Below are positions 8,829 through 35,344 of a stretch of 43,740 nucleotides of DNA, piece by piece. Both the position numbers and the translations under genes were made by a program. The notes beneath the pieces were generated by a model. The model was not told where the DNA came from and made no database searches. It was given only the letters and a program-made list of their open reading frames with translations. Position 1 is the stretch's first letter. The number at the start of each line of letters is the position of its first letter. This DNA is from an uncultured Chlorobiaceae bacterium (GTDB lineage Bacteria; Bacteroidota; Chlorobiia; Chlorobiales; Chlorobiaceae), in assembly GCA_903939765.1 (NCBI GenBank), contig CAJAIK010000039.1:1-43740 (forward strand). Reading direction: 5' to 3'.

Positions 8829-9881
8829 TTATAAAAAACAGTTGCCTTTGATATTGCAAACCATCCGGACTTGTTCTTCATGAAAGGGTTGGGCGTTCTC
8901 TGTGCAAATACAGTCTCCTCCAACTTTCTTCAAAGAACCCTCAAATGCTGTCAACTGGTTTCCTGAACAATCGAAATTACCCTTGACCTTTTTGGGAGCA
9001 TCCTCAAGTGTTGCGATCTGGTTCTCTGAGCAATTAAAATCCCCCTTCACCTTTTCAGGAGCCCACTTGAGTGAAATCAATTGATTATTTGAACAATTAA
9101 GCCCGTCAACTTTTTGAGGAGCACCTTTAAGGGATGAGAGTTGATTACCGGAACAATCAAATACCCCGACTTCTTCAGGAGCTCCTTTGAGAGAAGTCAA
9201 CTGATTTGCTGAACAATCGAAAGAGCCGCGCACTTCACGAGAGACTCCTTTAAGCGAGGTTAACTGGTTTCCACTGCAAGAGAAATCTCCCCTGACAACA
9301 TAAGGGCTGCCTGCCAGTGAAGCAAGTTTGTTGCGGGAACAATCAAAATCACCCTGCACCTTTAGTGGCGCACCCTGGAGTGTTGCAAGCTGATTATCAG
9401 AACAGTTGTAATCACCACCAACTATCAATGGGGCACCATCAAGTGAGGAGAGCTTGTTGCCGGAACAGTTGAAATCTCCTTCTACTATCTCCAGGCAGTC
9501 CGCGAGCAGGGTTTCCGTATTTATAAGAACCTCCCCTTTGAACACGGTCAACTGATTTCCTGCACAGGAAAAATCTCCCATAATGAATGTTGGACAACCC
9601 AAAAGAGAGGTCAGTTGATTGCAGGAACAATCAAAGTCCCCTTTAACCTCATCAGGACCACCTTCGAGTGAGGTCAACTTGTTCCCTGAACAGTTAAAAT
9701 CTCCCTTAATTTTTTTTGGGCTGCCCTCAAGTGTGGTGAGCTTGTTGCCGGAGCAGTTAAAATCTCCCTTTACCCTCTCAGGGCACCCTTCCAGCAAAGT
9801 TATTCCCTTATTGGAACAATCGATGTCACTTTTTCCATCAAGCTCCCCCATGACATCGGCAAACGTTACTTTTTTACTCAT
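8829..9881 (-). CDS. Cys-containing leucine-repeat protein (paralogue 1)
   Basis: A 350-residue protein built almost entirely of about 15 tandem repeats of roughly 20 residues with the pattern GDFxCSGNQLTSLxGxPxxV. Each repeat has a hydrophobic ladder and one cysteine before the Asn. The repeats should stack into a solenoid similar to a leucine-rich repeat, with a column of cysteines along one side. Only short caps are unique: an N-terminal FADVMGELDGKSDIDCS and a C-terminal end with three cysteines. No signal peptide is visible. The start is supported by GGAGG five bases before ATG. A paralogue at 13064 lies in inverted orientation. Such repeats occur in phage and bacterial proteins, and I know of no function. 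Confidence 0.8.
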   Translation of the reverse strand: MSKKVTFADVMGELDGKSDIDCSNKGITLLEGCPERVKGDFNCSGNKLTTLEGSPKKIKGDFNCSGNKLTSLEGGPDEVKGDFDCSCNQLTSLLGCPTFIMGDFSCAGNQLTVFKGEVLINTETLLADCLEIVEGDFNCSGNKLSSLDGAPLIVGGDYNCSDNQLATLQGAPLKVQGDFDCSRNKLASLAGSPYVVRGDFSCSGNQLTSLKGVSREVRGSFDCSANQLTSLKGAPEEVGVFDCSGNQLSSLKGAPQKVDGLNCSNNQLISLKWAPEKVKGDFNCSENQIATLEDAPKKVKGNFDCSGNQLTAFEGSLKKVGGDCICTENAQPFHEEQVRMVCNIKGNCFL

Positions 9882-9953: not shown

Positions 9954-10646
9954 TTAATGTGACGCATCCTTGTGAATGATTTCACCTGTCACGAGATAAC
10001 CGACCTCCTGTGCAATCTTTACAGCGTGGTCGGCAATATGCTCGATATAGCGGGAGATACTCATAACCGCCATAAGCTGACTCACATCAGCATCCGGGAT
10101 TTTTATCAAAGCTGTTGCCTTGTTAACGACCGCGCGGTGCATTACCTCAATCTCTTTGTCAAGAACACCAACCTCATCGGCCAGAGCTTGCTCTTTTAAG
10201 GCAAAGGAGGTAATCGACTTTTTAACCATTTCGGCCGCAAGCTCACCCATATCCTCGAACTCAAAAGATTCGATAATCTCAGGAGTGATTTCAAGCATAA
10301 GATCAAGACTATGAAAAGAGAGATCAGCAATACGCTCCAGCTCATCATTGATCATGATAATGGTCATTATGGTGCGCAGGTCACTTGCAACCGGATGCTG
10401 AAGGGCGAGAAAAGAGAGGCATCGCTCTTCGAGATCAATCTCTGCCATATCAATTTCATAATCAGCAAGCATTCTCTGCTTTGTGCCAGGTTCATCATGC
10501 TGCACCGCCGCATGCAGTGAAATCAAAAAATTCTCCAATACTCTATTGGATAGTTGAACAAGAACTTCAGAAAGTTCTGTTATTTGCACATGAACTGGCC
10601 GTTCTGACATAATATTAATGGCGGTTAAATTCATTTGATCAATCAC
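9954..10646 (-). CDS. phoU: Phosphate signalling regulator PhoU
   Basis: A 230-residue all-helical protein made of two three-helix PhoU repeats. The metal-binding style motifs are visible as [20 protein letters not shown] in the first repeat and [18 protein letters not shown] in the second. PhoU links the phosphate transporter to the PhoR kinase and controls polyphosphate levels. The GTG start (10644-10646) overlaps the ppk stop in GTGA, so the gene is translationally coupled to ppk. This pairs it with polyphosphate synthesis instead of the pst transporter operon, which is not in the window. A PhoBR pair lies 10 kb to the right. Confidence 0.93.
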
Positions 10647-12880
10647 GTTATTGCACTTGTGACATTTTTTTTCGGGGTCGACCGGGTTAAAAAAAGTGCC
10701 TGACTGTTCACTTTCGGTCCATCAATGCTGATCTTCGAATATGTTGCGTCAGCATGCATCTCCCAGGCCTTGACATTATCGCTCATAATCAGATCAAGAT
10801 CCGATTTGACAACACGAATGATCGCCTTATCAAACACCGGAAAAAGTGTTTCAACCCGATCATCAAGGTTTCGTGGCATGATATCCGCACTTCCAAGATA
10901 GAGTTCCTCCTTTCCTCCATTATAGAAGTAGTAGGCCCGGCTGTGCTCAAGAAAACGTCCGATAATACTGATGACCCTTATATTCTCGCTGACTCCCTCT
11001 ATCCCTGGCTTGAGGCAGCAGACCCCGCGGATGATAAGGTCAATCTTTACCCCTTCGCAAGACGCCTTGTAGAGTGCCCGGATAGTTTTACCATCCACCA
11101 GGGCATTCATTTTCATGATGATCCTTCCCTTGTTCTCCTTCCGGCTCCACTCAACCTCCCGGTCAATCATCTCGATAATCCTTTTTCTGGTATTTATCGG
11201 CGAGACGAGCAGCTTTCTGTATTCGGTATGTTTTGAGTAGCCTGTCAGGGCGTTAAAGAGTTCTGCCACATCGTTGGCAAGTTGCTCGTTGACGGTAAAA
11301 AGGCTGTAATCGGTATAGATTTTGCCTGTTGCCGGATTGTAGTTACCTGTCCCAAGATGGAGATAGCGCTTCAGCTTATGTTGCTCACGTCGCACAATCA
11401 GGGTAAGCTTGGCGTGGGTTTTCAGCCCCGGAAGACCGTAGGCGACATGTGCCCCGACATCTTCAAGTGCGCGGGCCCAGATAATATTGTTTCCTTCGTC
11501 AAACCTTGCCTTGAGTTCCACCAGAACCGCTACCTGTTTACCCGCTTCAGCAGCCTTCATCAGGGCCTTGACAATCGGCGAATTACTGCCAACCCTGTAG
11601 AGCGTCTGCTTTATTGAAAGCACATCCGCATCAAGAGCTGCCTGATTGATAAAATCAACAACTGGCTGAAAAGAGTCGTAAGGATGGTAGAGTAACCGAT
11701 CTTTGGCTTTTATGGCACTGAAAATATCGGCGGGGAACTGCTCCTCGATAACGTTTTTTGGTACAAATGGATCATCTTTCAGAGCAGGAATCTCAATTTT
11801 CAGAAGCTCCATCAGAGAGCTGAGTCCAAGAGCCCCATCTATTTCATAGACGTTTCTTGCGGAAACGTCAAGATTTTTCATCAAAAGCTTTCTCACCGGC
11901 ACAGGCATTGCCGGAGTGATGTCAAGCCGAACAACCTTTCCGTAACGGCGTGAGCGGATTCCCTTTTCGATGGTCTTCAACAAATCTCCCGCTTCATCCT
12001 CCTCAATTTCAACATCTGCGTCGCGAATCAATCTGAAAAGATAGGCTTTGGTGATCCTCATTTTTGGAAACAACTGCTCCAGATTGTTTTCTATAAGCTC
12101 CTCAAGCCAGATAAAGCGAAGAATCCCGTCATCATCAAAACCTTTGATATCATTAAGCCGAAGAAGCCGTGGAAGCATACTCGGGACTTTGACACGGGCA
12201 AACTTCAACGTAGTGCTTTCGTCATCAGCAATTTCTATAGCGAGATTCAGTGAAAGGTTCGACATAAAAGGAAAGGGATGGCCGGTATCGAAAGCCAAGG
12301 GGGTCAAGACGGGATAAATCTCTTTGCGAAAATAGTGGCTTAATGCATGCTGCTTCATAGCAGATAATTCTGAAAATCGGAGAAACTCAATACCCTCCTG
12401 CTGAAGTGCAGGCACCAGGTCTTGATAAAAGCACTTGTTTCTCTGGCTGAGCTGCCGCAAAATCATCGTCCTGATTTTTTCGAGCTGTTCAAAAGGAGTG
12501 TGGCCATCAATCGTTCGTTCCACAATACCCGCTTCATACTGATCCTCAATACCGGCAACCCGGGTCATGAAATATTCATCAAGGTTTGAACTGAAAATCG
12601 AAATGAATTTCACTCGTTCCAAAAGCGGATGCGCTTCAGCATCCAGCGCCTCTTCAAGCACACGCTGGTTGAACGCGATCCAGCTCAGCTCCCTGTTGAG
12701 ATAAAAAGAGGTATCGAAAAAATCAGGAAGCGCCACTCCCTTGCCATCTTCCTCATCACATGTCTGCATAAGAGGCATAAAAAAATTGATCCCGGTCTCC
12801 CCATGCCGTATAAAAAAACGCCACAACTCTTGGGGACAATGAACATCGAATGGACAATAATGTAGAGGCTTTGTTGTCAC
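10643..12880 (-). CDS. ppk: Polyphosphate kinase 1
   Basis: A protein of up to 745 residues with all four PPK1 domains. The N-domain starts [20 protein letters not shown] and the head domain follows. The first C-terminal phospholipase-D-like domain has the autophosphorylated histidine in [15 protein letters not shown], followed by [20 protein letters not shown]. The second has [14 protein letters not shown] and PRNLDDRVE. The enzyme polymerises ATP gamma-phosphate into polyphosphate. The GTG start at 12880 gives an unusually long leader before NRELSW, so ATG at 12778 or 12769 is also possible. No clear ribosome-binding site decides between them. It is cotranscribed with phoU and diverges from the leucine-repeat gene at 13064. 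Confidence 0.95.
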
Positions 12881-13063
12881 GAACCAATGGACTTCTGTTA
12901 CAAGTATGAAAACAAATGCCGGGAAGGTAACGAAAGAGTCAGAGCTACTTTTTTGAAAAGTATATTGGGCAATCTTTATCCTTTACCAGCAGAAGAACTG
13001 CCAAAACAGATATCTGCTGATCCGGGTTTTTCATGTCGATCATTTATTTTTGGAGATAGAACG

Positions 13064-14275
13064 ATGAGTACAAGAGCAACAAAACGACTTTTCGCCGATG
13101 TTTTAGGCCCCCTTCTTGATGGAAAAGGCGACATCGATTGTTCAAACAGAGGGCTTACCTCTCTTGAGGGATGCCCTGGAATCGTGGCAGGTAATTTCAA
13201 CTGTTCGGGAAATCAGTTGACTTCACTGGAGGGTGGCCCTCACACCGTTACCGGTGATTTTTCCTGTTCAAATAACCAGTTGACATCGCTTGAAGCCTGT
13301 CCTGATGAGGTTCACGGCGATTTCGATTGTTCTCACAATCAATTGCTCTCACTTGAAGGTGCTCCAAAAAAGGTGACGGGTAATTTTGATTGTTCTGCCA
13401 ACCAGTTGACAACACTTTATGGTCATCTGAAAAAAGTTGGTGGAGATTTTTCCTGTTCAGATAACCTGCTTACCTCACTCAATGGTGCACCTCATAAAGT
13501 TGGCGGAGATTTTGCCTGTTCGGATAACCTCCTTACCTCACTTGAGGACGCTCCGCGTGAAGTTGGTGATTTTGACTGTTCCCACAATCAGTTGACCTCA
13601 CTCGAAGGGAGCCCGGATGAAATTCACGGCGATTTCGATTGTTCCGGCAATCAACTAAGCTCACTGGCAGGGTGCCCAAATTTTATTATTGGTGACTTTT
13701 TTTGCGCCGGAAACCAACTGACCTCACTGAAAGGCGGGCCGGTTGTTGTTTACGGAAACTTCGACTGTTCAAAACATAAGCTGGAATCACTCAAAGGAGC
13801 CCCCAAAGAGGTTGGGGGGGATTTTAATTGCTCAGGGAACCTGCTCACATCACTTGCAGGAACGCCTCACGAGGTTTGTCATTTTGATTGTTCCAACAAT
13901 CAGTTGACAACGCTCCAGGGTGCACCCCATAAAGTGAGCGGAAATTTCTCCTGTTCAGCAAACCGGTTGACATCGCTCAAAGGTGCACCAAAAAAGGTCA
14001 AGGGCTCTTTTAATTGTTCCGGCAACCAGTTGACGACTCTTGATGGGGTACCTAAAAAAGTCAAAGGAAATTTCGATTGTTCCGCGAACCAACTGACAAC
14101 TCTTGATGGAACTCTCAAAAAAGTTGGCGGAGATTTTATTTGCGGGGGAAATGCAGGGATATTTGATGAAGAAGAGGCTCGGGCAACATGTTCGATAAAA
14201 GGAAACTATATTCGATCGAACAACACCCGTTACAGCGACATAACCATCGCCAATGCCATGAAGCTGTATGAATGA
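13064..14275 (+). CDS. Cys-containing leucine-repeat protein (paralogue 2)
   Basis: A 403-residue solenoid protein with about 17 copies of the GDFDCSxNQLTSLxGAPxxV repeat. The start at ATG 13064 is chosen over an upstream ATG at 12887. GGAG lies 9 bases before it, and the protein then begins like the paralogue at 8829-9881 (RLFADVLGPLLDGKGDIDCS). The C-terminal cap (FDEEEARATCSIKGN) also matches the paralogue. A few repeats are shortened by two residues (for example EVGDFDCS), and one has lost its Asn (CSKHKLESL). No signal peptide or membrane segment is seen. A strong terminator follows at 14282. Function unknown. Confidence 0.8.
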   Translation: MSTRATKRLFADVLGPLLDGKGDIDCSNRGLTSLEGCPGIVAGNFNCSGNQLTSLEGGPHTVTGDFSCSNNQLTSLEACPDEVHGDFDCSHNQLLSLEGAPKKVTGNFDCSANQLTTLYGHLKKVGGDFSCSDNLLTSLNGAPHKVGGDFACSDNLLTSLEDAPREVGDFDCSHNQLTSLEGSPDEIHGDFDCSGNQLSSLAGCPNFIIGDFFCAGNQLTSLKGGPVVVYGNFDCSKHKLESLKGAPKEVGGDFNCSGNLLTSLAGTPHEVCHFDCSNNQLTTLQGAPHKVSGNFSCSANRLTSLKGAPKKVKGSFNCSGNQLTTLDGVPKKVKGNFDCSANQLTTLDGTLKKVGGDFICGGNAGIFDEEEARATCSIKGNYIRSNNTRYSDITIANAMKLYE

Positions 14276-14281
14276 CAGAGT

Positions 14282-14313
14282 AAAAAGGCCATTCCCGAAG
14301 GAGTGGCCTTTTT
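14282..14313 (+). terminator. Rho-independent terminator
   Basis: A hairpin has 14-base arms (14282-14295 and 14300-14313) with one G-U pair and a CGAA tetraloop. The right arm ends in five T residues. It lies 7 bp after the stop of the leucine-repeat gene and isolates it from the CHAD gene. Confidence 0.85.
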
Positions 14314-14320
14314 GTCTAAT

Positions 14321-14341
14321 AATGGATAACGTCTATCCATT
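14321..14341. promoter_or_regulatory. Short perfect inverted repeat upstream of the CHAD gene
   Basis: An 8-bp perfect inverted repeat (arms 14321-14328 and 14334-14341, 5-base spacer) lies about 117 bp upstream of the CHAD start and just after the terminator. It has no T-tract, so an operator is possible. There is no independent support. Confidence 0.25.
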
Positions 14342-14457
14342 TGAATAGAGCAAAGATGGAATTGAATTGTTATTTTACTTTGATATGAACTCTTTTATCT
14401 TGATAGCGTGAGGGTTTATTGTCCGGTCAGTTCATTCCATTTTAACGTAAGCTGCGG

Positions 14458-16029
14458 ATGCACACCACCTCGAAAACGGTATACTTCAGGTTGAATCAGG
14501 CCGACGCCAACGATTTGCTGCCCGAAAACGCACTTCCCTCCGGATGGCAGCTCAAGGCTCACGCATCACGGAAAGAGCGGCGGGATTACTACGATACCTT
14601 TGAGTGGCAAGCTTTCGAAAAAGAGGTTGCAATTGTAAAAAAGAGAAGAACCCTTTTTTTGACCGATCTCCATACTGGCCAGGAAAAGGCATCTCTCCCT
14701 TTCCCGGCACATCCCTCCTCGTTCTTCGCCAACGCTCTTCCATCCGGAATCCTGAAGGCGGAACTCTCTTCACTGACGGATATCAGGGCATTCATAAGGC
14801 TCTGCCAGGTTGATGCTGCCATCACCTCATACCGCATTCTTGATGACAATGAGAAGAGTGTCGCACTGCTGACCTCCGAATCACTCTCGCTGGCTGGCAA
14901 TGAAATGCCGGAACCCTTTGTGCACCTTCTGGCACTCTCGCCGCTCAGGGGATATGACGATGAGATGGAGCGGATGGTAACGTCATTGACAAGCGACAAC
15001 AAAATCGCAACCGTTCTTGATTTCAGGGAGCTCTTTCTGCTGATCATGAATGCTGCCAGCCTCAGTGTGCATGAGTACTCTTCAAAAATCAGTCTTGACC
15101 TTGACGGCGACGCGCCGGTTTATCACAGTGCCCGTCAGTTGCTTCAGTTTACCTTTTCCGTCATGCGGGCCAATGAAGAGGGGCTCAAAAAGAACCTTGA
15201 TTCCGAATTTCTGCACGACTATCGTGTTGCCATACGCCGTACCCGCTCCATTCTGAAGCAGCTCAAGGGCGTTTTTGAGCCCGAAGAGAGCGCATATTAT
15301 CTCCGTCTTTTCAGGGAGCTTGGGAAACGAACCAACGAATTGCGCGACCGGGATGTCTCTCTTTTGCGGGAGGCAAGCTATTTTCGCTCTCTACCCCCTT
15401 GTCTCCAGCCATCATTGAAGCTCTTTTTCATCGACATTGCTGCATCCCGCAAGAAGCTGCACAGGCAGTTCTGCCGCTATCTTGCCTCTGACCCATGCCA
15501 ATCCGCTCTTGCAGAATGGAATGCCTTTGTACACCAGCAATCCGTTCCTGATCCTGAACACTGCCCGAACGCCTCCCTTTCGACTGCCAGTGTTGCTGTC
15601 GAAAGCATCAAAAAAGCATGGAAAACGGTTATCCGCCACGGTCGTCAGGCCAGTGAGGAGACAACCGACAACGAGATCCATGCACTGCGGATTGACTGCA
15701 AAAAACTTCGTTATCTGCTTGAATTTTTCTCCTCCATTTTCCCTCATAAATCGGTCGCTCCCGCGGTACGCCAATTGAAGGAACTCCAGGATAACCTCGG
15801 TGACTTTGTCGATTTTTCGGTTCAACTGCACTTTCTTCGTGAACGTCTGACAGAGCTGCCCCCAGGCAAAGAGGAGATCGTGCTTGCTGCATCAATGGGC
15901 GCCCTTATGGCCACCCTTTTTAACAAACAGGAAGAGGCGAGGGGTCGATTCCACAAAACCTTTGAGGCGTTTGACCATGAAAAAACCGCTCAACTCTTTC
16001 ACGATCTTCTGACAAGCAACATGAAATGA
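14458..16029 (+). CDS. CHAD-domain protein (polyphosphate-binding) with CYTH-like N-terminal half
   Basis: A 523-residue cytoplasmic protein. The N-terminal 200 residues look like a degenerate CYTH/triphosphate-tunnel region ([21 protein letters not shown], strand-rich). Residues 230-520 form the helical CHAD domain with its conserved basic and histidine signatures [27 protein letters not shown] and [18 protein letters not shown], plus [17 protein letters not shown] domains are known to bind polyphosphate and to localise to polyphosphate granules. The gene lies next to ppk-phoU, and its last codons overlap the start of a ParA-type ATPase in ATGA. This indicates tight coupling between the two. 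Confidence 0.88.
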
Positions 16030-16766
16030 AAACCATAGCACTCTACAGCATCAAGGGCGGGGTCGGCAAAACGGCTGCGGCGGTCAACCTTGCCTACCTC
16101 TCCTCCCTGACATCTCAGCCAACCCTGATCTGCGATCTTGATCCGCAGGGGGCAAGCTCCTACTATTTCAGGATTACCGCCTCAAAAAAATATAACAGCG
16201 ACCAATTTCTGAAGGGCAACAAAAAGATCTTCCGCAACATCAAGGCAACCGATTTTGAAAAGCTTGACCTGCTTCCTTCAGACTTTTCTTACCGCAATCT
16301 TGATATCGAACTCGCTGAAGAAAAAAAACCTCAAAAGAAGCTCAAAAAAAACCTTGAAGAGCTCAGCGATGAGTATCGCTATCTCTTTTTTGACTGCCCG
16401 CCAAACCTGACACTCCTTTCTGAAAGTGTCTTTGCTGCCTCCGACCTGATTCTGGTGCCTTTGATTCCCACGACGCTCTCAATACGCACCTACGTTCAGT
16501 TACATGATTTTTTTAAAGCCAATAAACTCGACAGCACAAAAATCCGCCCTTTTTTCAGCATGGTGGAAAAACAGAAAAAATTACACCGCGACACCATCCT
16601 TGAATTCGGGAGTGGCCCGGTATTCCTCACCCAATCAATCCCTTACAATTCCGAGGTTGAAAAAATGGGCATCTACCGCGCACCGCTCAATTACGTTCTG
16701 CCCAACGCTCCAGCCTCAAAAGCCTACCGCAACCTCTGGGAAGAGATTCGCTCACAGCTTGAATAA
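16026..16766 (+). CDS. ParA/MinD-family partition ATPase
   Basis: A 246-residue cytoplasmic ATPase of the ParA family. The deviant Walker A motif is [18 protein letters not shown] at residues 8-25. Walker A' is [10 protein letters not shown], Walker B is [15 protein letters not shown], and the later [20 protein letters not shown] is typical of the small ParA group without an N-terminal HTH. Such ATPases move DNA or cytoplasmic bodies (plasmids, carboxysomes, storage granules) over the nucleoid. There is no ParB or centromere-like repeat beside it. The only coupled partner is the CHAD protein, with a 4-bp overlap. I infer that it positions polyphosphate granules. Confidence 0.88.
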
Positions 16767-16927
16767 ATGCGGGCAGCCCTCTCGCTCTTGCTTCAGCATC
16801 TGCAATTCAGAAATTCCATTCAGTTTTCACACGGTTGTAACATTGCCCTCTCCATTAAAACAGAGATATTGGGTATAAAGAAAAGCAATATGGTCAAGCT
16901 TTCAACCACCCGTCACTGAAGAAGTTC

Positions 16928-18373
16928 ATGAAGATATATCGTCAGAAAAAGTCTCTCTTCAGCTCGCTGAACATTACACTGCTGCTGATCATCATGGCAT
17001 CGGCTTCAGCTTTTTACCCCAATAACCAGACTCTGCAGGGCGCTGCAAAAAAGCGCGTCCCTCAACCACGCTCTATTTTTCTTTTTATAGGAGATGGCAT
17101 GGGACCAGCGCAGGTAAAACTCTCAAGCGAACTGCTTGAGAGCGGCCACACCCTCGCCATGACCTCATTTCCGGTACTCGGTATGGCAACCACCCATTCG
17201 GCAGACCGACCTATTACCGACTCCGGAGCCGCAGGCACGGCACTTGCTACCGGCAAAAAAACCACTATCGGTACCATTTCAATGGCCGGGAACCATCTCG
17301 ACACACTGAAAACCATCGCTGAAATGGCAAAGGCAAAAGGGATGAGAACCGGGATTGTTACAAGTGTTGGAATTGATGATGCAACCCCCGCCTGTTTTTA
17401 TGCCCACAACGCCTCCCGCTCCAACCTGTACGACATTGCCGTGCAGATGGCCTCAAGCGGTTTCGACTACTTCGGAGGAGGATACAGCCTTGGAACTTCC
17501 GCTGAAAACCAGGCAAAAGCCAAAATTTTCAAGGGAGAGATTACCAATCTCATGCAATCGGCTCACTATTTTCTTGCACGTAACAACAAAGAACTGAAGG
17601 CCATAAAGCCGGGAACGCGATGCTGGGCATACAGCGATTATGACAGCAAGGGGGCGCTGAGCTTTGCCATGGATCGCCATGAGAGAGAAACATCGCTTGC
17701 AGAATTTACACGCGAGGGAATTCGGCTGCTCAACAACCCCAAAGGATTTTTCATGATGGTTGAAGGGGGAAAAATCGACTGGGCCTGCCACGCAAACGAT
17801 GCTGCTGCAGCAGCGCACGACGTTGAGGCATTCGACAAAGCCATAGAGGAGGCCCTTGCCTTTTACCACCGGCACCCCGGAGAGACACTGATTGTCGTTA
17901 CCGCCGATCACGAGTGCGGCGGGCTTTCACTTGGCAACGCAGCAAACGGTTATGAAACCCGTTTTGACCTTCTGCGCCATCAAAAAATTTCGCAGCAACG
18001 GTTTGCCGAAAAGGTCTCTGCATGGAAAAAACGAGGCACCGTCACTTTCCCTATGGCGCTCGACAGTGTCAAAGTCTCTTTCGGACTTGGAGATGTTGAT
18101 GCCGGGGATCGCAACGCGCTGCAGCAAGCCTACCTGGCAACCATGAAAAGCGAGGATGCCGGAACAAAGAGCACTGATACTTTCAGCCCGGCCGTAACCG
18201 CCCTGTTAAACAACCGAGCCGCAATCGGCTGGAGCAGCAATGCCCATACGGCCGTGCCCGTTCAGGTTTTTGCCATAGGGCGTGGAGCCGAGACATTCAA
18301 GGGCTTTTACGACAATACCGATATCGCAAAAAAAATCATGCAGATCGCCAAACTGAAAGCCCCTGAAAAATAG
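16928..18373 (+). CDS. phoA: Alkaline phosphatase, PhoA family
   Basis: A 481-residue exported enzyme that hydrolyses phosphomonoesters in the periplasm. A basic start and one hydrophobic segment (ITLLLIIMASASAF, residues 17-30) form the signal peptide. FLFIGDGMGPAQV carries the first metal aspartate. The nucleophilic serine lies in TDSGAAGTALATGKKT. Later metal ligands are in EGGKIDWACHAND, VTADHECGG and SSNAHTAVPV. The gene starts 161 bp after the ParA gene, and a CCTCTCCATTAAAA sequence shared with the crtB upstream region precedes it at 16847-16860. Location next to ppk, CHAD and PhoBR fits control by phosphate starvation. Confidence 0.93.
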   Translation: MKIYRQKKSLFSSLNITLLLIIMASASAFYPNNQTLQGAAKKRVPQPRSIFLFIGDGMGPAQVKLSSELLESGHTLAMTSFPVLGMATTHSADRPITDSGAAGTALATGKKTTIGTISMAGNHLDTLKTIAEMAKAKGMRTGIVTSVGIDDATPACFYAHNASRSNLYDIAVQMASSGFDYFGGGYSLGTSAENQAKAKIFKGEITNLMQSAHYFLARNNKELKAIKPGTRCWAYSDYDSKGALSFAMDRHERETSLAEFTREGIRLLNNPKGFFMMVEGGKIDWACHANDAAAAAHDVEAFDKAIEEALAFYHRHPGETLIVVTADHECGGLSLGNAANGYETRFDLLRHQKISQQRFAEKVSAWKKRGTVTFPMALDSVKVSFGLGDVDAGDRNALQQAYLATMKSEDAGTKSTDTFSPAVTALLNNRAAIGWSSNAHTAVPVQVFAIGRGAETFKGFYDNTDIAKKIMQIAKLKAPEK

Positions 18374-20705: not shown

Positions 20706-20717
20706 AAGTTGCATACC

Positions 20718-21428
20718 ATGTCAAATCCACAGATTCTTGTTGTCGAAGATGACCAGAACCTTGCAAAACTGCTTGAATATAATCTTAACAGGGCAGGCTA
20801 TAGATGTCACCTTTCCGGCACCGCTGAAGATGGGCTTGAGCAGCTCTCAAAAAAAAGCGTTGATCTTGTGCTGCTTGATGTGATGCTGCCAGGGATGGAC
20901 GGCTTTGAACTCTGCCGAAGAATCAGACAGCATCAGCGTTACAAAGATATCCCCATCATCATGGTGACGGCCAAAGGAGAGGAGATTGACCGGATTTTGG
21001 GATTTGAGCTCGGCATTGATGACTATGTGGTCAAACCCTTCAGCCCCCGTGAGCTGACACTGCGCATACGGGCAATCCTCAAGCGCGATCACCGGCAGAG
21101 CGGAAAAACGGAGGAACTGCTCAAGGCAGGAGCCCTTGAAATTGATCTGACGCGCCACCTTGTGATGCTTGAAGGCAAGGAGCTTGTGGTGACACTGATG
21201 GAGTTCAAGCTTCTGGTCGCTCTCCTCAAAAGAAAGGGAGAGGCGCAGTCGCGAGAAAGGCTGCTCAGTGATGTCTGGGATATCGATAAAAGCATCAACA
21301 CCAGAACCATCGACACACACATTACCAGAATCCGCGAAAAACTCGGCGAAACTGGTCGCATGATCACAACCGTTCGCGGACTTGGTTACAAATTTGAAGA
21401 AAAAGAGGGTGATGACCATGCCGCCTAA
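20718..21428 (+). CDS. phoB: PhoB-type response regulator (OmpR family)
   Basis: A 236-residue response regulator. The receiver domain has the acidic pair VVEDDQ, the phosphorylation site Asp54 in LLLDVMLPGMDG, the Thr of IIMVTAK and the Lys of DDYVVKPFSPRE. The C-terminal winged helix ends in SINTRTIDTHITRIREKLGE and TVRGLGYKFE. ATG 20718 lies 12 bp after the arsA stop, so arsD-arsA-phoB-phoR could be one transcript. Its kinase gene overlaps its 3' end. Assignment to phosphate control rests on the neighbouring ppk, phoU and phoA genes and on overall PhoB-like sequence. Some other OmpR-type role cannot be excluded. Confidence 0.88.
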   Translation: MSNPQILVVEDDQNLAKLLEYNLNRAGYRCHLSGTAEDGLEQLSKKSVDLVLLDVMLPGMDGFELCRRIRQHQRYKDIPIIMVTAKGEEIDRILGFELGIDDYVVKPFSPRELTLRIRAILKRDHRQSGKTEELLKAGALEIDLTRHLVMLEGKELVVTLMEFKLLVALLKRKGEAQSRERLLSDVWDIDKSINTRTIDTHITRIREKLGETGRMITTVRGLGYKFEEKEGDDHAA

Positions 21429-23217
21429 ACTCTCCGTCAAGCTTGGCCTTGTCATCGGGATGATTATTTTTTTTTCCACAGTCATCAGCTATTTTTCGAT
21501 TGAGGGTCGATTGACGGAGATACTGGTCTCGGCAACAAAAAAGGAGCTTCACCGCGATCTTCTGTTCAACAAACAGATGTTCGAAGAGGAATCGCGGGAA
21601 TGGCAGACAAATGAGCAAAGCAGCGCATGGGTCGAGCGTATCGCACATGCGCTCGACATCCGGGTCACACTGATTGATCTTCAGGGAGAGGTCATCGCCG
21701 ACTCCGCTATCCCCCCCGGCAAGCTCTACGCAATGGAGAACCATTGGAACAGGCCGGAAGTACAGGAGGCCATTACAAAAGGGTACGGCGAAAGAACCCG
21801 GTACAGTCAAACCGTCAAAGAGCACATGCTCTATTTGGCCATCCCGGTCGGTTTGCCAAAACCCTATGCTATCCTGCGATTCGGCAAACCACTTTACGAT
21901 ATCGGAGTGTTCGACAATGGAATTCAAAAAGAGATCAACCAAGGGATCTTTCTTTCGCTCTTCTTCTCCCTGTTTACAGGTTTTCTGGCATCGTTTTTTC
22001 TGACCCGTCCGCTCAGGGTACTTGCAAAAAGCGCAACAAGAAGGATTAATGGCGACTATTCAGGCAGCATCCCGGTTGTCAGCAAGGATGAAACAGGCCT
22101 CTTTGCCCGCGCACTGAACGTGATGACGGATGAAATCAGGCAACTGCAGCGCAGCGAAGAGTGGCTCCGGACGGTGTTTTCAGGTATTCGTGAGGCGATC
22201 ATTGTCACCGACGCGGCTGGCGACATCATTCTTGTCAACCCGGCAGCATCGAGAATGTTCCGCATCGACGGAACCATGTTCAAGTCGCGCCCGCTCCACC
22301 ATCTCTCCGACAGCAAGCTTCAGGAGCTGTTTGCAAAAGTACACTGCACGCGCATCGCCCTGCGCAAAGAGGAGATGGCACTCATAACCAAAAAGGGAGA
22401 GCGCATCATGCAAATCAGCTCCATGCCACTCACCAAAGAGGCCCAGTTCGAGGGAACCGTTTTTGTTTTGAACGACATCACCAAACTTCGCAACCTTGAA
22501 GCAATACGCCGGGATTTTGTCTCCAGTGTTTCACACGAACTGCGCACGCCGCTTACCGTCATCACCGGCTACGCCGAGACACTGCTCGACGGAGCCATGC
22601 TTGAGCCCGAACATGCCACACCCTTCCTGCAAATTATCCTGCAGGCAAGCCAGCAACTCACCGCTCTTGTGAACGATGTGCTCGACCTGTCCAAAATTGA
22701 ATCGGGCTATATTGAATACCAATTCAGTGCGGTTGACATCAAAAGTATTGTGCAGAAATCAGTTAATCTTCTGCAACATGAAGTTGAAAAAAAGCAGATC
22801 AAGCTTGAAATCCATATCCCCGAAGAGCTTCCTCCAGTTTTTGCCGATCCCCGCTATCTCGATATTATTATTCGCAACCTCCTCGATAACGCCATCAAAT
22901 ACGTTGACGAGCGCAACGGGAGAGTCAGGATTTCAGTATTCAGAAGTGGAGATATGATCCGGCTGGAGGTCGAAGATAACGGTATCGGCATATCGAAATC
23001 CGATCTTGACCGTATCTTTGAGCGCTTCTACCGGGTCGACAAAGCCCGTTCACGCGAGCGCGGAGGAACCGGCCTCGGGCTTGCCATTGTCAAGCACATT
23101 ATTCTGGCCCACAAAGGCAACGTCGAAGTACGCTCACGTATCAACCACGGCTCGGTCTTCAGTGTGGTTTTGAGAATGGCGACGGCAGAGTCAGTTAAAT
23201 CAGCAAGATTTAACTGA
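21418..23217 (+). CDS. phoR: PhoR-type sensor histidine kinase
   Basis: A 599-residue membrane kinase. Transmembrane helix 1 lies near residues 8-25 (LGLVIGMIIFFSTVISYFSI), a periplasmic sensor region follows, and helix 2 is FLSLFFSLFTGFLASFFL near 180. Then come HAMP (RPLRVLAKSATRRINGDYSG), a PAS domain (VFSGIREAIIVTDAAGDIIL), HisKA with the phosphorylated His373 in SSVSHELRTPLTVI, and HATPase boxes (IRNLLDNAIKYV, EDNGIGIS, ERGGTGLGLAIVKHI). ATG 21418 has AGAGGG 8 bases upstream and overlaps phoB by 11 bp. The order TM-HAMP-PAS-HisKA-HATPase is that of PhoR. It should phosphorylate the neighbouring regulator. Confidence 0.9.
   Translation: MPPKLSVKLGLVIGMIIFFSTVISYFSIEGRLTEILVSATKKELHRDLLFNKQMFEEESREWQTNEQSSAWVERIAHALDIRVTLIDLQGEVIADSAIPPGKLYAMENHWNRPEVQEAITKGYGERTRYSQTVKEHMLYLAIPVGLPKPYAILRFGKPLYDIGVFDNGIQKEINQGIFLSLFFSLFTGFLASFFLTRPLRVLAKSATRRINGDYSGSIPVVSKDETGLFARALNVMTDEIRQLQRSEEWLRTVFSGIREAIIVTDAAGDIILVNPAASRMFRIDGTMFKSRPLHHLSDSKLQELFAKVHCTRIALRKEEMALITKKGERIMQISSMPLTKEAQFEGTVFVLNDITKLRNLEAIRRDFVSSVSHELRTPLTVITGYAETLLDGAMLEPEHATPFLQIILQASQQLTALVNDVLDLSKIESGYIEYQFSAVDIKSIVQKSVNLLQHEVEKKQIKLEIHIPEELPPVFADPRYLDIIIRNLLDNAIKYVDERNGRVRISVFRSGDMIRLEVEDNGIGISKSDLDRIFERFYRVDKARSRERGGTGLGLAIVKHIILAHKGNVEVRSRINHGSVFSVVLRMATAESVKSARFN
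23191..23217 (+). terminator. Perfect hairpin at the phoR stop codon
   Basis: An 11-bp perfect inverted repeat (23191-23201 and 23207-23217) with a 5-base loop includes the phoR stop codon in its right arm. No run of T follows directly, so termination or mRNA 3'-end stabilisation are both possible. Confidence 0.45.
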
Positions 23218-29822: not shown

Positions 29823-32800
29823 CTACGCCCCCCAACTGCCATCGACGTCACCCTTGACAATGCCGATCAGGTGCACCTCCTGATCCACTTCAAGCGTAAC
29901 CGGTAGCGGATTGTCCGGCCAAACGACGTGGGTTCTCGTCATGCTTTCGCTGCCTACGCTCTCGGGCACAAAGAGCCACTCATTTGCTGGCGCCGAAGGG
30001 AGACCAACCGCCATCTTCAGGATATTGAGGGCGTCAGCAGACCTGACCAGACCATCCTTGTTGACATCCGCCGCGAGGAACTGGTATGGCGATACAGCGC
30101 TTCCATCACTATTGGGGTTCATACCTACAGCCATTTTCAATGCAGCGAGAGCGTCTTGTGCACTGATGGCGTTGCTTTCAGTCGTGCCGGAAACTTTGCC
30201 ACTGATCAGGGCATAAGTGCCATCCGGCATGTTAAGATGCTCGTAAAGCCCGTCACTGCCGGTGTTCATGCTTTCCGACGCTATGCCAAAGGCAGGGACA
30301 GTATCGTTGCCCAACTCACCCGCCGTCAAAACAAGTTCAAAGTGCTGCGGATTGGTCGGTGCTGTGAGCGTCAGGGTTCCAAGCTTCACTGAGCCCGACG
30401 ACAAGGCGGTTAGGCCCATACCGCCAAGAATGAACTCTCCCGCTTTTTCGGTATTGCCCAGCAGGCTCCAACCGGAAGGCAAAGCTGCCGAATTCTCCCA
30501 GGTGGCAACTGATCCGGCGGGCAAGGCAAGTTCCAACTCGACACTGTTGATGTCACTCTGTGCCGAAGTCTCCCATATCTCTATAGTCCGGGTGCCATCT
30601 GCCGCGATCTGCATGTTCCTGAATTCGACGGGTTCTGTGCCCGTGGTGGCTGGGACTGAGATGAGCGTGCTGGTAACGTCTGCAATGGCGGCACCGGTTT
30701 TCCAGAAAGTCACTGAACCCGCAAGGTCATGAACGGAAAGGGCGGATGCCGTCGTAAAGTCGTAGGTATCTGTACCTGCGTAGCTGTTGCCTGCAAGATC
30801 AGCAATAGCTCCTGCTCCGATGCTCACCGTATACTCCGTATCGAAAGCCAAGTTGGCTGACGGATTGATTGTAAGAGTTGAACCATTGAAAATTACCTGT
30901 GCAGTATCCGTTACGTCAATCGTCATCACTGTCGTCCCTCCTTTCTGTAACAAAATACTCCCTGAACCTGCCTGCACCGGTTCAGTGAAGGTGAAAACAA
31001 TATCAGCTCCGATGGCGACATTGGTCGCGTATTCAACAGGCGACATAGCCTGCAGGCAAGGGGGAAAAATATCAAGCAGATCAGCCACTGCATGTACTCC
31101 GTCAGCAAACTGAAAGAATTCAGCGCCGGAAACAAGATCGCTGCCATCACGACCGGAGAGCGAGTCCGTTACCGTATAGGTTTGATTATCAAAATTATAG
31201 CTGATGGAATATTCAGCAAGATTGCCAATGAACACAATGGTATCGGCATCAGAGCCACCATCGAGCGTATCATTGCCTGCGCCACCCTGAAGCTTATCGT
31301 CACCATAGCCACCGGAAAGACTGTTGGCCATCGCATCGCCAATAAAGGTGTCGTTGCCGGAACCACCGATCAGATTTTCAATGTTGCGAATGGTGTCTTC
31401 AGCAACTCCGCCAACCGTAACTATGGCATCAACCGCACCGTTCAGCGTCACCATAAGCGGAACGGCCTTATCGGAATAGTCCGCAGTATCTGAGCCAGTA
31501 CCACCATCGAGCGTATCGACTCCCTCACCGCCCAGCAACCAGTCGTCACCTGCGCCACCTTCAAGGGAGTTGGCAACAGCATTCCCGATCAAAATATCAT
31601 TGAAGTTGCCGGCTATGACATTTTCGATGTCAATAAGAAGGTCGGTTCCAATGGCTGCGGCATCATTGCCATCAGTGGAATAGGCCGCTCCCTCAACAAG
31701 ATCAACCGTAATCCCGGCAAGAGCGCTGGTGTACTTTGCCGTATCGATACCCTCACCGCCAACATAGGTGTCGTCCCCTTCGCCTTCGCCGCCAATGAAA
31801 AGGTCATTGCCGAAGCCACCAAAGGCGAGATCATTGCCACCCATGGCTGCAAGGATATCATTGCCGCCATTGCCCCAAAGAATATCGTTACCGATGTTCC
31901 CATACAGGTGATCGTCATCTGGTGTACCCGACCGCACTTGATTTCCCGTGTTGTTGGTATAGAGATCGGAGATATCTTGCACATTTTGCAGGAGAGGTAT
32001 CACATTTTGACTGTTATCATATAGCCAATTCGCACCCCAGGTCACCCCCGAACCATCCGTTCTTAGCGCCGCAAATGCATCAGTCGATGATGAAACAGAT
32101 ACAACATCGACATCACCATTCAGCTCACTCGCCACAAGACTACTGTCGCCACCATGCGTGTTATCCCCCCATGTCACGACAGAGCCATCCGAACGCAACG
32201 CTGCAAAAGAATATGTTGTCGAAAACACATGAACTACATCGACATCACCATTCAGCTCACTCGCCACATAACTGCTGTCGCCACCATACGTATTGAGTCC
32301 CCATGTCACTACCGAGCCATCCGAACGCAACGCTGAAAAAGCACCGTTTGTTGAAAACAACTGCTCTATTCGAATGCTCCCGTTAAGCTTGTCAGCAACA
32401 ATGCGACTATCGCCACCATACCTATAGTCTCCCCATGTCACTACCGAGCCATCCGAACGCAACGCTGCGAAAGCATTCATCGTTGAAAACACCTGTAACA
32501 CATCCTCGTCTCCGTTCAACTTGCTCGCCACATTACTACTATCACCACCGTCACCGTTAACCCCCCAAGTCACTACTGATCCATCCTCTCGCAATGCCGC
32601 AAATGCAAACTGCGTTGAAAAAACCTGTTCCACTCGGACACTCCCGTCAAGCTTGTCTGCCACACTGCTGCTATTGCCACCACAGCTATTCCCCCCCCAT
32701 GTCACTACTGATCCATCCTCTCTCAACGCTGCAAAAGCACTCCCTGTCGAAAACACCTGTAACACATCCTCATCTCCGTTTAACTTGCTCGCCACATTAC

Positions 32801-35174
32801 TACTATCGCCGCCTTGCGTATTATCCCCCCATGTCACGACAGAGCCATCCTCTCGCAATGCCGCGAATGCAAACTGCGTTGAAAAAACCTGTTCCACTCG
32901 GACACTCCCGTCAAGCTTGTCTGCCACAAGACTACTGTCGCCACCTTGCGGATTGGCCCCCCACGACACAACTGAGCCATCCGATCGCAATGCTGCAAAT
33001 GCCCAACGGGCTGAAAAAACCTCTAATGCAGCAAAATTGCCTTCAATTCTCTCATAATCGCCATTGGTACACCATGAAAACACAGAGCCATCAAAAAGAA
33101 TCACTGCGAAATTATCGCCATTTTGCCACTCGCCCATCGTGTGCTCTGGAAATAACTTTGTACAAGAGCTCACCCTGTTGGCAGAAATCGTACTACCTCC
33201 GATCACTCCACCACCATCAATCAAATGCGCCGCATCACGAACATCATCATGAGCAAAACGATACTGTTCCACCCCGCTCACCAGATCAGTTCCGCCTCGC
33301 CCTGCAACCGTATCCCTTATGGTAAAACTTGTCTGATCGGCATTTTGAGTAATAGTGTACTCGGCATAAGTCCCGGTAAAAATCACGGTATCAAAGCCAC
33401 TACCGCCATCAATGGTGTCGTTGCCCCTTTTGCCTTGAAGCACATCATCGCCCCCTCCTCCAAGCAGGTGGTTATCCAGATCGTTGCCATACAGATACTC
33501 ATTTCGATAACTGCCATTGACGACTGTACAGGCATCACCCGCATTCAATGTTTTATCTTCAAATGTAAAGGATTCAACATGGGTCAACTGGTCAATGCCG
33601 TCCCGCCCCGTCACGGTAAACACCAGACTATTCTTGTCCAGACTGATCGAGTATTCCGCAAAATTTCCGCTGAACACAGCCGTATCATTACCGCTGCCGC
33701 CATCAATGGAATCGTTGCCGCTTCCACCATTGATGGTATCATTACCTTCACCAGCATAGATGGAGTCATTGCCAGCATATCCATAAATATAATTATCGTG
33801 ATTATTGGAAGTTAGTTCATGGATACCGGGAGAAAGTTGGTCATCCTTGTAGGTGCCATAGATATTTTGACCGTTTTCATTAGCTCTTACTCTCATCAAC
33901 TCTATAATTCCACCCATGTAATGGAGGGCAAGCTGATCAGAAGAACTTACATCTGGGTTAGTAAGCTCAATATCTAATCCAATATGATCTGGAGATGGTT
34001 CATGAGAAACCATTGAGCCTTTGACCAAGTAATTACTAAAATTCAAATTAGGGCCTGAACCGAAAGGCAAATAATGTTCATATGTGGCCATAACCGTATT
34101 GTAATAATCTGTCATGACATGATAGGTATTCGATTGTGTAATATTTTTAGCACCACCAGGATCAAAAGTTACACCATCTAAATTGAACAATTTCGATACA
34201 ACTTGAGCAAGAGAACCTCCAAGTGAGTGCCCTGTCACTAAAATAGTGGTATCTAGTTTATCCTTATATTGCTTCAGAATTTCAAGTGTAAAGTCTGAAG
34301 CATTCATAAATTGCTCATTCCAGTCCTGTGCCGGATTGCCAATTGCTATATCAGCATTTAGGTCTTTAAAGTCATTGGTCCCACGAAAGGCAATAACTAC
34401 CACATTATCTTTCGTGAATGCTGTGGCGGCAAAACCAGTTTCTTTATTTTCATTTGTAGGATTGACTGGGGAAATTCCCATTTCATCTGCGGTTATATAC
34501 TCCCCATTTTGATTCTTAAGCAGTATTTGCCATCCATCTTTGTACAATTCATCCCATGTATTCACAGCGAGTGTCTTTCTCGCAGGATCTTTATTTTCAT
34601 CAGGATTTTCAGGAATATCGTAATAGGCAACAAGTGACATTTTTGCCAGAATATAATCGTCAACCGAACCGAGAGTATGATCGTATTGCTGCAAAGCAGG
34701 ATCCACAACCGGCACCACTGATTCAATTGTACCAGTTGACACCTCAAGCACCCAGTCCCCACCAACTGCCGTTCCCCCCGTCACATCATCCGATGCTGCA
34801 ACATCGGCTCCTGTCAGTTGCGCCACTGTCGCAATAAATTGCTGCCCCGTAGCACCAGCGCCCACATTGCAACCGTAAAGCAACAGATCGCCGTTGTTGG
34901 TCAAAGCGTGACCAATATTTTCGAGCTGAGATTGACAGGAAAAAAGATTGCTTTCGGTGAGGTGCGTGCTGCCAATAATTATTGCACCCGGGGAACCATG
35001 CGAAATGATCTGTATCGAGCTGTAGTCGTATTTGCCCGCAAGCGACTCTTCAATTTGCAGCAGCCCGTCATGAGTTGTATCAAGAACCTTGTACTCCGTT
35101 CCTGCTTCAAATTGCGAGACCAACAGGTCAAGATCGTTGACCCTGCTGTCGATGAACACTACTGTTTTTGCCAT
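29823..35174 (-). CDS. Giant secreted protein: DUF4347, class 3 lipase, RTX, RCC1-like repeats, dockerin-like tail
   Basis: A 1,783-residue protein. ATG 35174 is preferred because DUF4347 proteins start with VVFIDSRVxD as here (an in-frame ATG at 35231 exists). Order: DUF4347 (about 1-165, with IISHGSPG and LLLYGCNVG); alpha/beta lipase class 3 (about 190-460, VVIAFRGTNDF and the nucleophile elbow TGHSLGGSL near 317); RTX calcium repeats of the GGxGxD type in blocks near 465-590; nine RCC1-like repeats (about 685-1050, FAALRSDGSVVTWG); more RTX blocks (about 1085-1310); a Big_5-like domain (about 1375-1478); a cohesin-like beta domain (about 1480-1630); and a dockerin-like pair (SAQDALAALKMAVG, DVNKDGLVRSADALNILKMAVG). 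RTX repeats imply type I secretion and calcium-dependent folding. No type I exporter genes are adjacent. It may act in cell-surface interaction or lipid attack. Confidence 0.88.
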   Translation of the reverse strand: MAKTVVFIDSRVNDLDLLVSQFEAGTEYKVLDTTHDGLLQIEESLAGKYDYSSIQIISHGSPGAIIIGSTHLTESNLFSCQSQLENIGHALTNNGDLLLYGCNVGAGATGQQFIATVAQLTGADVAASDDVTGGTAVGGDWVLEVSTGTIESVVPVVDPALQQYDHTLGSVDDYILAKMSLVAYYDIPENPDENKDPARKTLAVNTWDELYKDGWQILLKNQNGEYITADEMGISPVNPTNENKETGFAATAFTKDNVVVIAFRGTNDFKDLNADIAIGNPAQDWNEQFMNASDFTLEILKQYKDKLDTTILVTGHSLGGSLAQVVSKLFNLDGVTFDPGGAKNITQSNTYHVMTDYYNTVMATYEHYLPFGSGPNLNFSNYLVKGSMVSHEPSPDHIGLDIELTNPDVSSSDQLALHYMGGIIELMRVRANENGQNIYGTYKDDQLSPGIHELTSNNHDNYIYGYAGNDSIYAGEGNDTINGGSGNDSIDGGSGNDTAVFSGNFAEYSISLDKNSLVFTVTGRDGIDQLTHVESFTFEDKTLNAGDACTVVNGSYRNEYLYGNDLDNHLLGGGGDDVLQGKRGNDTIDGGSGFDTVIFTGTYAEYTITQNADQTSFTIRDTVAGRGGTDLVSGVEQYRFAHDDVRDAAHLIDGGGVIGGSTISANRVSSCTKLFPEHTMGEWQNGDNFAVILFDGSVFSWCTNGDYERIEGNFAALEVFSARWAFAALRSDGSVVSWGANPQGGDSSLVADKLDGSVRVEQVFSTQFAFAALREDGSVVTWGDNTQGGDSSNVASKLNGDEDVLQVFSTGSAFAALREDGSVVTWGGNSCGGNSSSVADKLDGSVRVEQVFSTQFAFAALREDGSVVTWGVNGDGGDSSNVASKLNGDEDVLQVFSTMNAFAALRSDGSVVTWGDYRYGGDSRIVADKLNGSIRIEQLFSTNGAFSALRSDGSVVTWGLNTYGGDSSYVASELNGDVDVVHVFSTTYSFAALRSDGSVVTWGDNTHGGDSSLVASELNGDVDVVSVSSSTDAFAALRTDGSGVTWGANWLYDNSQNVIPLLQNVQDISDLYTNNTGNQVRSGTPDDDHLYGNIGNDILWGNGGNDILAAMGGNDLAFGGFGNDLFIGGEGEGDDTYVGGEGIDTAKYTSALAGITVDLVEGAAYSTDGNDAAAIGTDLLIDIENVIAGNFNDILIGNAVANSLEGGAGDDWLLGGEGVDTLDGGTGSDTADYSDKAVPLMVTLNGAVDAIVTVGGVAEDTIRNIENLIGGSGNDTFIGDAMANSLSGGYGDDKLQGGAGNDTLDGGSDADTIVFIGNLAEYSISYNFDNQTYTVTDSLSGRDGSDLVSGAEFFQFADGVHAVADLLDIFPPCLQAMSPVEYATNVAIGADIVFTFTEPVQAGSGSILLQKGGTTVMTIDVTDTAQVIFNGSTLTINPSANLAFDTEYTVSIGAGAIADLAGNSYAGTDTYDFTTASALSVHDLAGSVTFWKTGAAIADVTSTLISVPATTGTEPVEFRNMQIAADGTRTIEIWETSAQSDINSVELELALPAGSVATWENSAALPSGWSLLGNTEKAGEFILGGMGLTALSSGSVKLGTLTLTAPTNPQHFELVLTAGELGNDTVPAFGIASESMNTGSDGLYEHLNMPDGTYALISGKVSGTTESNAISAQDALAALKMAVGMNPNSDGSAVSPYQFLAADVNKDGLVRSADALNILKMAVGLPSAPANEWLFVPESVGSESMTRTHVVWPDNPLPVTLEVDQEVHLIGIVKGDVDGSWGA
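32030..33110 (-). repeat. Tandem 132-bp repeats encoding RCC1-like units
   Basis: Nine copies of a 44-residue unit around [FA]ALR[SE]DGSVVTWG are encoded in tandem, the outermost ones being the most diverged. Two subtypes alternate in the middle (VADKLDGSVRVEQVFST and VASKLNGDEDVLQVFST). This produces a 264-bp higher-order repeat: the DNA from 32518 recurs nearly unchanged at 32782 for about 140 bp. Boundaries are approximate. Confidence 0.85.
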
Positions 35175-35344
35175 GATACAGAACGGTTGAACTGTTGATG
35201 CCGGAAAGCCCTGCGAACAGATGAAATACAATGCTGAGGCTTCAGCAAAATGACTATGTTAAACGTAGTGAAATTATTGTGAAAGACGGGGTGATAAATG
35301 CAAAAAATCAATGCATTACGGGAGGGCAGCAGCGAGGGTTGCCG

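Follow-up and report, generated by a model that had tools for sequence, protein, structure and literature searches.

The locus analysed here raises the question of whether a CHAD protein gene and a ParA-type ATPase gene that lie together in an uncultured Chlorobiaceae bacterium act as one system, and on what such a system would act. The window, i.e. the whole 43,740-nucleotide stretch of DNA that was analysed (GCA_903939765.1, contig CAJAIK010000039.1), carries both genes on the same strand, and their open reading frames, coordinates and shared four-base ATGA, already described in the first-pass annotation, were reconfirmed from the sequence (Table 1). The two genes are likely to be translationally coupled through this overlap. 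The pair sits within a phosphate island comprising phoU, ppk, alkaline phosphatase and PhoB/PhoR-like genes, with arsD-arsA downstream of the pair, between the alkaline phosphatase and PhoB/PhoR-like genes. The latter scored below the NCBIfam cut-offs (PhoB, 230 bits against a cut-off of 296; PnpS, 384 against 400). The pair had been placed directly beside ppk-phoU, which holds in that these genes are nearby upstream, but they do not adjoin the pair, as an LRR-like gene and a terminator-like hairpin (not listed by the terminator scan) intervene and ppk is divergent. The source genome encodes one CHAD gene and two ppk genes.

Table 1. Features of the CHAD-ParA locus and its surroundings (positions in the window).
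Feature	Position	Strand	Remarks
phoU	9954..10646	-	TIGR02135 above cut-off
ppk1 polyphosphate kinase	10643..12880	-	TIGR03705 E 9e-257; divergent from pair
LRR-like gene	12887..14275	+	true start possibly further downstream
14-bp inverted repeat + T run, terminator-like	14282..14313		separates LRR gene from pair
TTM(degenerate)-CHAD protein gene	14458..16029	+	523 aa; proposed polyphosphate-binding cargo adaptor; PF05235
N-terminal half of CHAD protein, residues 1-207	14458..15078	+	CYTH/TTM fold without catalytic ExExK
CHAD domain, residues 207-522	15076..16023	+	H253, R256, R260, R296 conserved
ATGA overlap, CHAD stop / ParA start	16026..16029	+	from sequence
ParA-type ATPase gene	16026..16766	+	246 aa; proposed positioning ATPase; PF13614
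Deviant Walker A KGGVGKT, ParA residues 10-16	16053..16073	+	signature lysine K10
Alkaline phosphatase	16928..18373	+	PF00245 E 1e-67
PhoB/PhoR-like two-component pair	20709..23217	+	NCBIfam best matches below cut-offs

The LRR-like gene, with NCSxNxLTSL repeats, is found directly 5' of CHAD in many Chlorobiaceae (the window and L095-L101), whether ParA or ppk comes next. A second LRR-like copy of 350 aa is present at 8829-9881 (minus strand), and the window also contains a 1802-aa open reading frame at 29823-35231 (minus strand).

Adjacency of the two genes is conserved among relatives, one of the checks suggested with the initial annotation. The Chlorobiia sample comprised 98 genomes (79 with both genes, 6 with CHAD only, 1 with a ParA fragment at a contig end and 12 with neither), and the genes were adjacent, on one strand and in the same order in 71 of the 79 genomes with both, or 72 when one further pair split by contig ends (L017/L089) is included. 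The other seven have ParA located apart with CHAD still in the genome, ppk following CHAD in six of them. The flanks of the pair differ among Chlorobiia (ppk, phoU, pst-like genes with a HAD phosphatase, arsA and others) and the pair itself is constant. One 99% complete genome (G037) lacks both CHAD and ParA and has a single ppk match, compared with two in most of its genus-mates, a pattern that fits loss of the cluster as one unit or, possibly, an assembly gap. Adjacency at this frequency far exceeds chance, and the two genes are not fortuitous neighbours.

The pairing also extends well outside this class, with a CHAD gene locked to a ParA-type ATPase gene, often with a four-base overlap, in no fewer than six bacterial phyla. 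Pairs in other phyla were located by scanning with the ParA protein, and in Pseudomonadota a profile of the ParA family separated 68 genomes (≥226 bits) from the next match (175 bits), a wide gap from other ParA proteins. The family was present in 9 of 301 Chloroflexota genomes, with CHAD directly upstream in eight and elsewhere in the genome in the ninth, and in 9 of 247 Spirochaetota genomes, where CHAD was adjacent in two and present anywhere in five. Adjacency was observed in 6 of the 29 loci inspected in Pseudomonadota. Gene order was CHAD-ParA-CYTH/NUDIX in Spirochaetota and ppk-CHAD-ParA-CYTH/NUDIX in Neomarinimicrobiota, and Paracoccus plasmids and genome G557 carry RHH-like, CHAD, ParA and CYTH/NUDIX genes in a row; Gemmatimonadota have the pair in the same order, with the CHAD frame broken in that assembly. 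Linked pairs of Chloroflexota, Spirochaetota and Pseudomonadota also show the −4 offset seen in the window and in Chlorobi. That overlap and adjacency are kept across phyla while the flanks change counts in favour of a CHAD-ParA partnership, and coupling of the two is well supported. No natural CHAD-ParA fusion was found among the loci; long frames around some ParA matches were out of frame with CHAD where checked.

Several other genes were observed upstream of CHAD in these phyla. The RHH-like proteins of the Paracoccus plasmids and G557 are small, have a basic N-terminal tail and adjoin or overlap CHAD (L174:3288-3476, L175:3299-3487 and L184:6259-6432). A Chloroflexota gene directly 5' of CHAD (L077:2789-3451) encodes an HTH followed by an extremely lysine-rich tail, recalling AlgP/PhaF-type tethers. 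In a Spirochaetales genome (L087:605-1420), two small putative DNA-binding-like open reading frames and a lysine-rich coiled-coil-like one, all without a Pfam match, precede CHAD-ParA.

The CHAD protein has the features expected of a polyphosphate binder, as had been supposed from the outset. The CHAD family matches residues 228–461 (E 7.4e-54) in Pfam, and the CHAD domain is 52% identical to that of the C. tepidum structures 6qv7, 6qva and 3e0s (E about 1e-104), a match that, judged by similarity, is of orthologue grade. The 6qva structure is the C. tepidum CHAD domain crystallised with polyphosphate, which it binds with high affinity, and mutation of the residues equivalent to H253, R256, R260 and R296 reduced this binding (PMC6537752). 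All four residues, with a role in binding shown in the orthologue, are invariant in the 70 linked CHAD proteins. The AlphaFold2 model (pLDDT 91.8) combines the CHAD domain with a CYTH/TTM-fold half, residues 3–207 of which match many TTM proteins (VIA-align Z 11–13.5), and no CYTH match was obtained for the protein in Pfam. The CYTH-like nature of this N-terminal half, as first annotated, therefore stands at the level of fold (Z about 13), but the suggestion that it is the ATPase-activating part found no support and was set aside: none of the 70 linked homologues has the catalytic ExExK motif within its first 60 residues, and in most Pseudomonadota with an unlinked ParA the best CHAD open reading frame is the short form without this half.

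The ATPase likewise proved to be of the ParA type, with a Pfam AAA_31 match (E 3e-32), an AlphaFold2 model (pLDDT 89.9) whose nearest folds are Soj/ParA (TM 0.84–0.89), nearer than MinD, and all of the switch residues checked. K10, K15, D37, D39 and D123, representing the deviant Walker A motif with its signature lysine and the Walker A' and B aspartates, are invariant in all 70 linked ParA proteins. Residues for DNA binding are less uniform. The arginines R195 and R224 of CcParA are common to several ParA proteins, and DNA-binding residues differ considerably from one known member to another (PMC7229837). At the R195-equivalent position the window protein has Q while 36 of the 70 linked ParA proteins have R, and the R224-equivalent position is unconserved, so nucleoid binding by the ATPase is not secured; K184 and R218 are well kept among the linked sequences.

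We favour, with reasonable but limited confidence, the reading that these two genes together specify a ParA-type system that positions polyphosphate granules as its cargo, the adaptor being the CHAD protein. This protein would bind polyphosphate with the basic surface of its CHAD domain, as has been shown for the domain of the orthologue, and the ATPase would act as a Soj/ParA-type switch that dimerises on ATP and attaches to the nucleoid irrespective of DNA sequence. On meeting the CHAD protein on a granule, the ATPase would be stimulated to hydrolyse ATP and would be released, and granules would follow the resulting ATPase gradient, stay spaced and be shared at division, as carboxysomes do with McdA. 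Up to three polyphosphate granules per cell are present in one Chlorobium (PMC11269200). While granule positioning is what we infer, the sequence comparisons make the pair a strong candidate for the missing apparatus by which cells place their polyphosphate storage granules. A broader proposal is more tentative: a widespread ParA system may position a storage polymer via a polymer-binding adaptor and constitute the polyphosphate-granule machinery of many phyla, with unlinked members using CHAD in trans. Four explanations compete with it; from most to least likely, the ATPase is a biogenesis regulator comparable to BcsQ, the two genes are simply co-expressed, the cargo is a different one, or the ATPase partitions DNA.

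BcsQ serves cellulose synthesis. By analogy, the ParA-like protein could control polyphosphate synthesis or turnover via the CHAD protein or PPK, leaving the granules unmoved, an explanation that we consider rather unlikely. BcsQ models occur among the weaker family matches of the ATPase and BcsQ structures among its fold matches, and enzymes of phosphate chemistry (CYTH, NUDIX, SixA-like and ppk) are found in the same clusters. Against this, both sequence (Soj/ParA E 1e-19 to 1e-16, compared with about 4e-13 for BcsQ) and fold are nearer to Soj/ParA, and the other polyphosphate genes vary where CHAD-ParA stays.

It is less probable still that the two genes are neighbours of convenience that share Pho-type expression and have no physical partnership. 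The window is indeed a phosphate island, but the overlap is kept across phyla, adjacency persists as the rest of the island changes and co-occurrence is near-complete in Chlorobiia. The pairwise distances of the CHAD and ParA proteins are also matched (r 0.92 over 70 linked pairs; r 0.90 for the 16 non-Chlorobi pairs only), a correlation that shows joint inheritance of the two proteins and not contact. In a quick ParA tree, the family formed one clade against Soj with CHAD adjacency on both large branches and 7–8 changes in adjacency, compared with a shuffled mean of 24 (some branches are long and details unsure), so the adjacency is either ancient or of repeated origin.

The ParA subfamily extends beyond its link to CHAD, which counts against the positioning reading. 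ParA-positive genomes without a CHAD match, some of them drafts, comprised 11 of 68 in Pseudomonadota, 4 of 9 in Spirochaetota, two Flavobacteriales and three Salinisphaera, and CHAD without this ParA family is common. The family might thus position another cargo, the CHAD protein being just one client or regulator among several, and members in CHAD-less genomes do have other conserved neighbours, e.g. a 319-aa non-Pfam protein in Treponema-like genomes. Nevertheless, most members occur in genomes that also have CHAD, and it is CHAD that reappears as the partner gene from phylum to phylum; we regard this explanation as improbable. Among Pseudomonadota, CHAD was present in 57 of 68 ParA-positive genomes versus 145 of 330 ParA-negative genomes (Fisher p 7e-10, shared ancestry ignored). 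Among the matches listed, the best CHAD open reading frame was short in 34 of the 44 ParA-positive Pseudomonadota genomes not shown to be adjacent, and it was long in all six adjacent ones. Reading of the sequence at a few unlinked loci indicated that CHAD is mostly the short form and in several lies beside a PPK2-like gene. In the Treponema-like genomes without CHAD (L149, L151 and L152), the ParA relative neighbours a conserved protein, about 320 aa long, that belongs to no Pfam family and is possibly another partner.

Least probable is that the ATPase serves the partition of plasmid or chromosomal DNA and sits here by chance. On one side are RHH-like small genes upstream of CHAD in the Paracoccus plasmids and G557, with a sub-threshold Pfam match to ParG for those of Paracoccus, and on the other a Chlorobi locus without parB, parS-like site or RHH gene, canonical parAB elsewhere, and matches in none of 50,697 phage records and only 11 of 72,556 plasmid records. 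The absence of parB and centromere-like repeats claimed at the start was borne out: no parB, RHH or other notable open reading frame was found between or beside the two genes, and no parS-like 16-mer in the whole window at up to three mismatches; the intergenic gaps 14276–14470 and 16750–16930, the two that were searched, contain no direct repeats. The sole ParB match of the genome is encoded on a different contig (C96), next to a separate canonical ParA of its own, and not with this ATPase. With the pair also conserved in relatives, none of the refuting outcomes named at the start that sequence can address was encountered. These absences and the canonical parAB led us to reject the plasmid-partition reading of the locus. 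RHH matches in the other clusters were below Pfam cut-offs.

The pair, read as a positioning system, resembles McdA/McdB and other ParA/MinD cargo systems (PpfA, MipZ and PomZ), in which a Soj/ParA-type ATPase is encoded with a cargo-bound partner and there is no parS in cis. It differs from McdA/McdB in that its partner is a polyphosphate-binding CHAD protein unrelated to McdB and its cargo is presumed, and its ATPase shares about 20% identity with McdA across the matched fold. A likeness in presumed function, nucleoid-linked spacing of storage granules, extends to AlgP of Pseudomonas aeruginosa, which acts on polyphosphate granules (PMC9239181, PMC13052382), and to PhaF/PhaM for PHB; AlgP acts as a tether resembling histone H1 and has no ATPase, whereas the CHAD-ParA pair encodes an ATP switch. 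The window protein is a direct member of the family of CHAD proteins or phosins (CtCHAD, ReTTMCHAD and E. coli YgiF), with the difference that its TTM half lacks ExExK. A highly conserved folD-ppk-parA-CHAD cluster was described in Acidithiobacillus in 2024, with parA read as plasmid partition (PMC10892726). This is the same gene neighbourhood, with possible membership of its parA in the subfamily, but that study made no proposal of positioning, and the cross-phylum pairing and its tests are presented here. Our search found no published study of a ParA partner gene of CHAD proteins and no published proposal of polyphosphate positioning by ParA, although an earlier remark on CHAD-ParA in older papers is possible. 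The neighbourhood is hence partly known; judged by the literature searched, its conservation from phylum to phylum and the idea of positioning seem not to have been published before.

A 2025 review names AlgP as the sole polyphosphate-granule spacing factor and describes the positioning proteins of Caulobacter as unidentified (PMC13052382). For the spacing and sharing of polyphosphate granules in bacteria, the pair provides a defined, conserved two-gene candidate, the orthologous CHAD domain of which already has a crystal structure with polyphosphate, and gene transfer exists for C. tepidum (PMC3842273). If the positioning reading is true, a polymer granule would join the cargos of ParA-type ATPases, and phosphate storage would be linked to the nucleoid.
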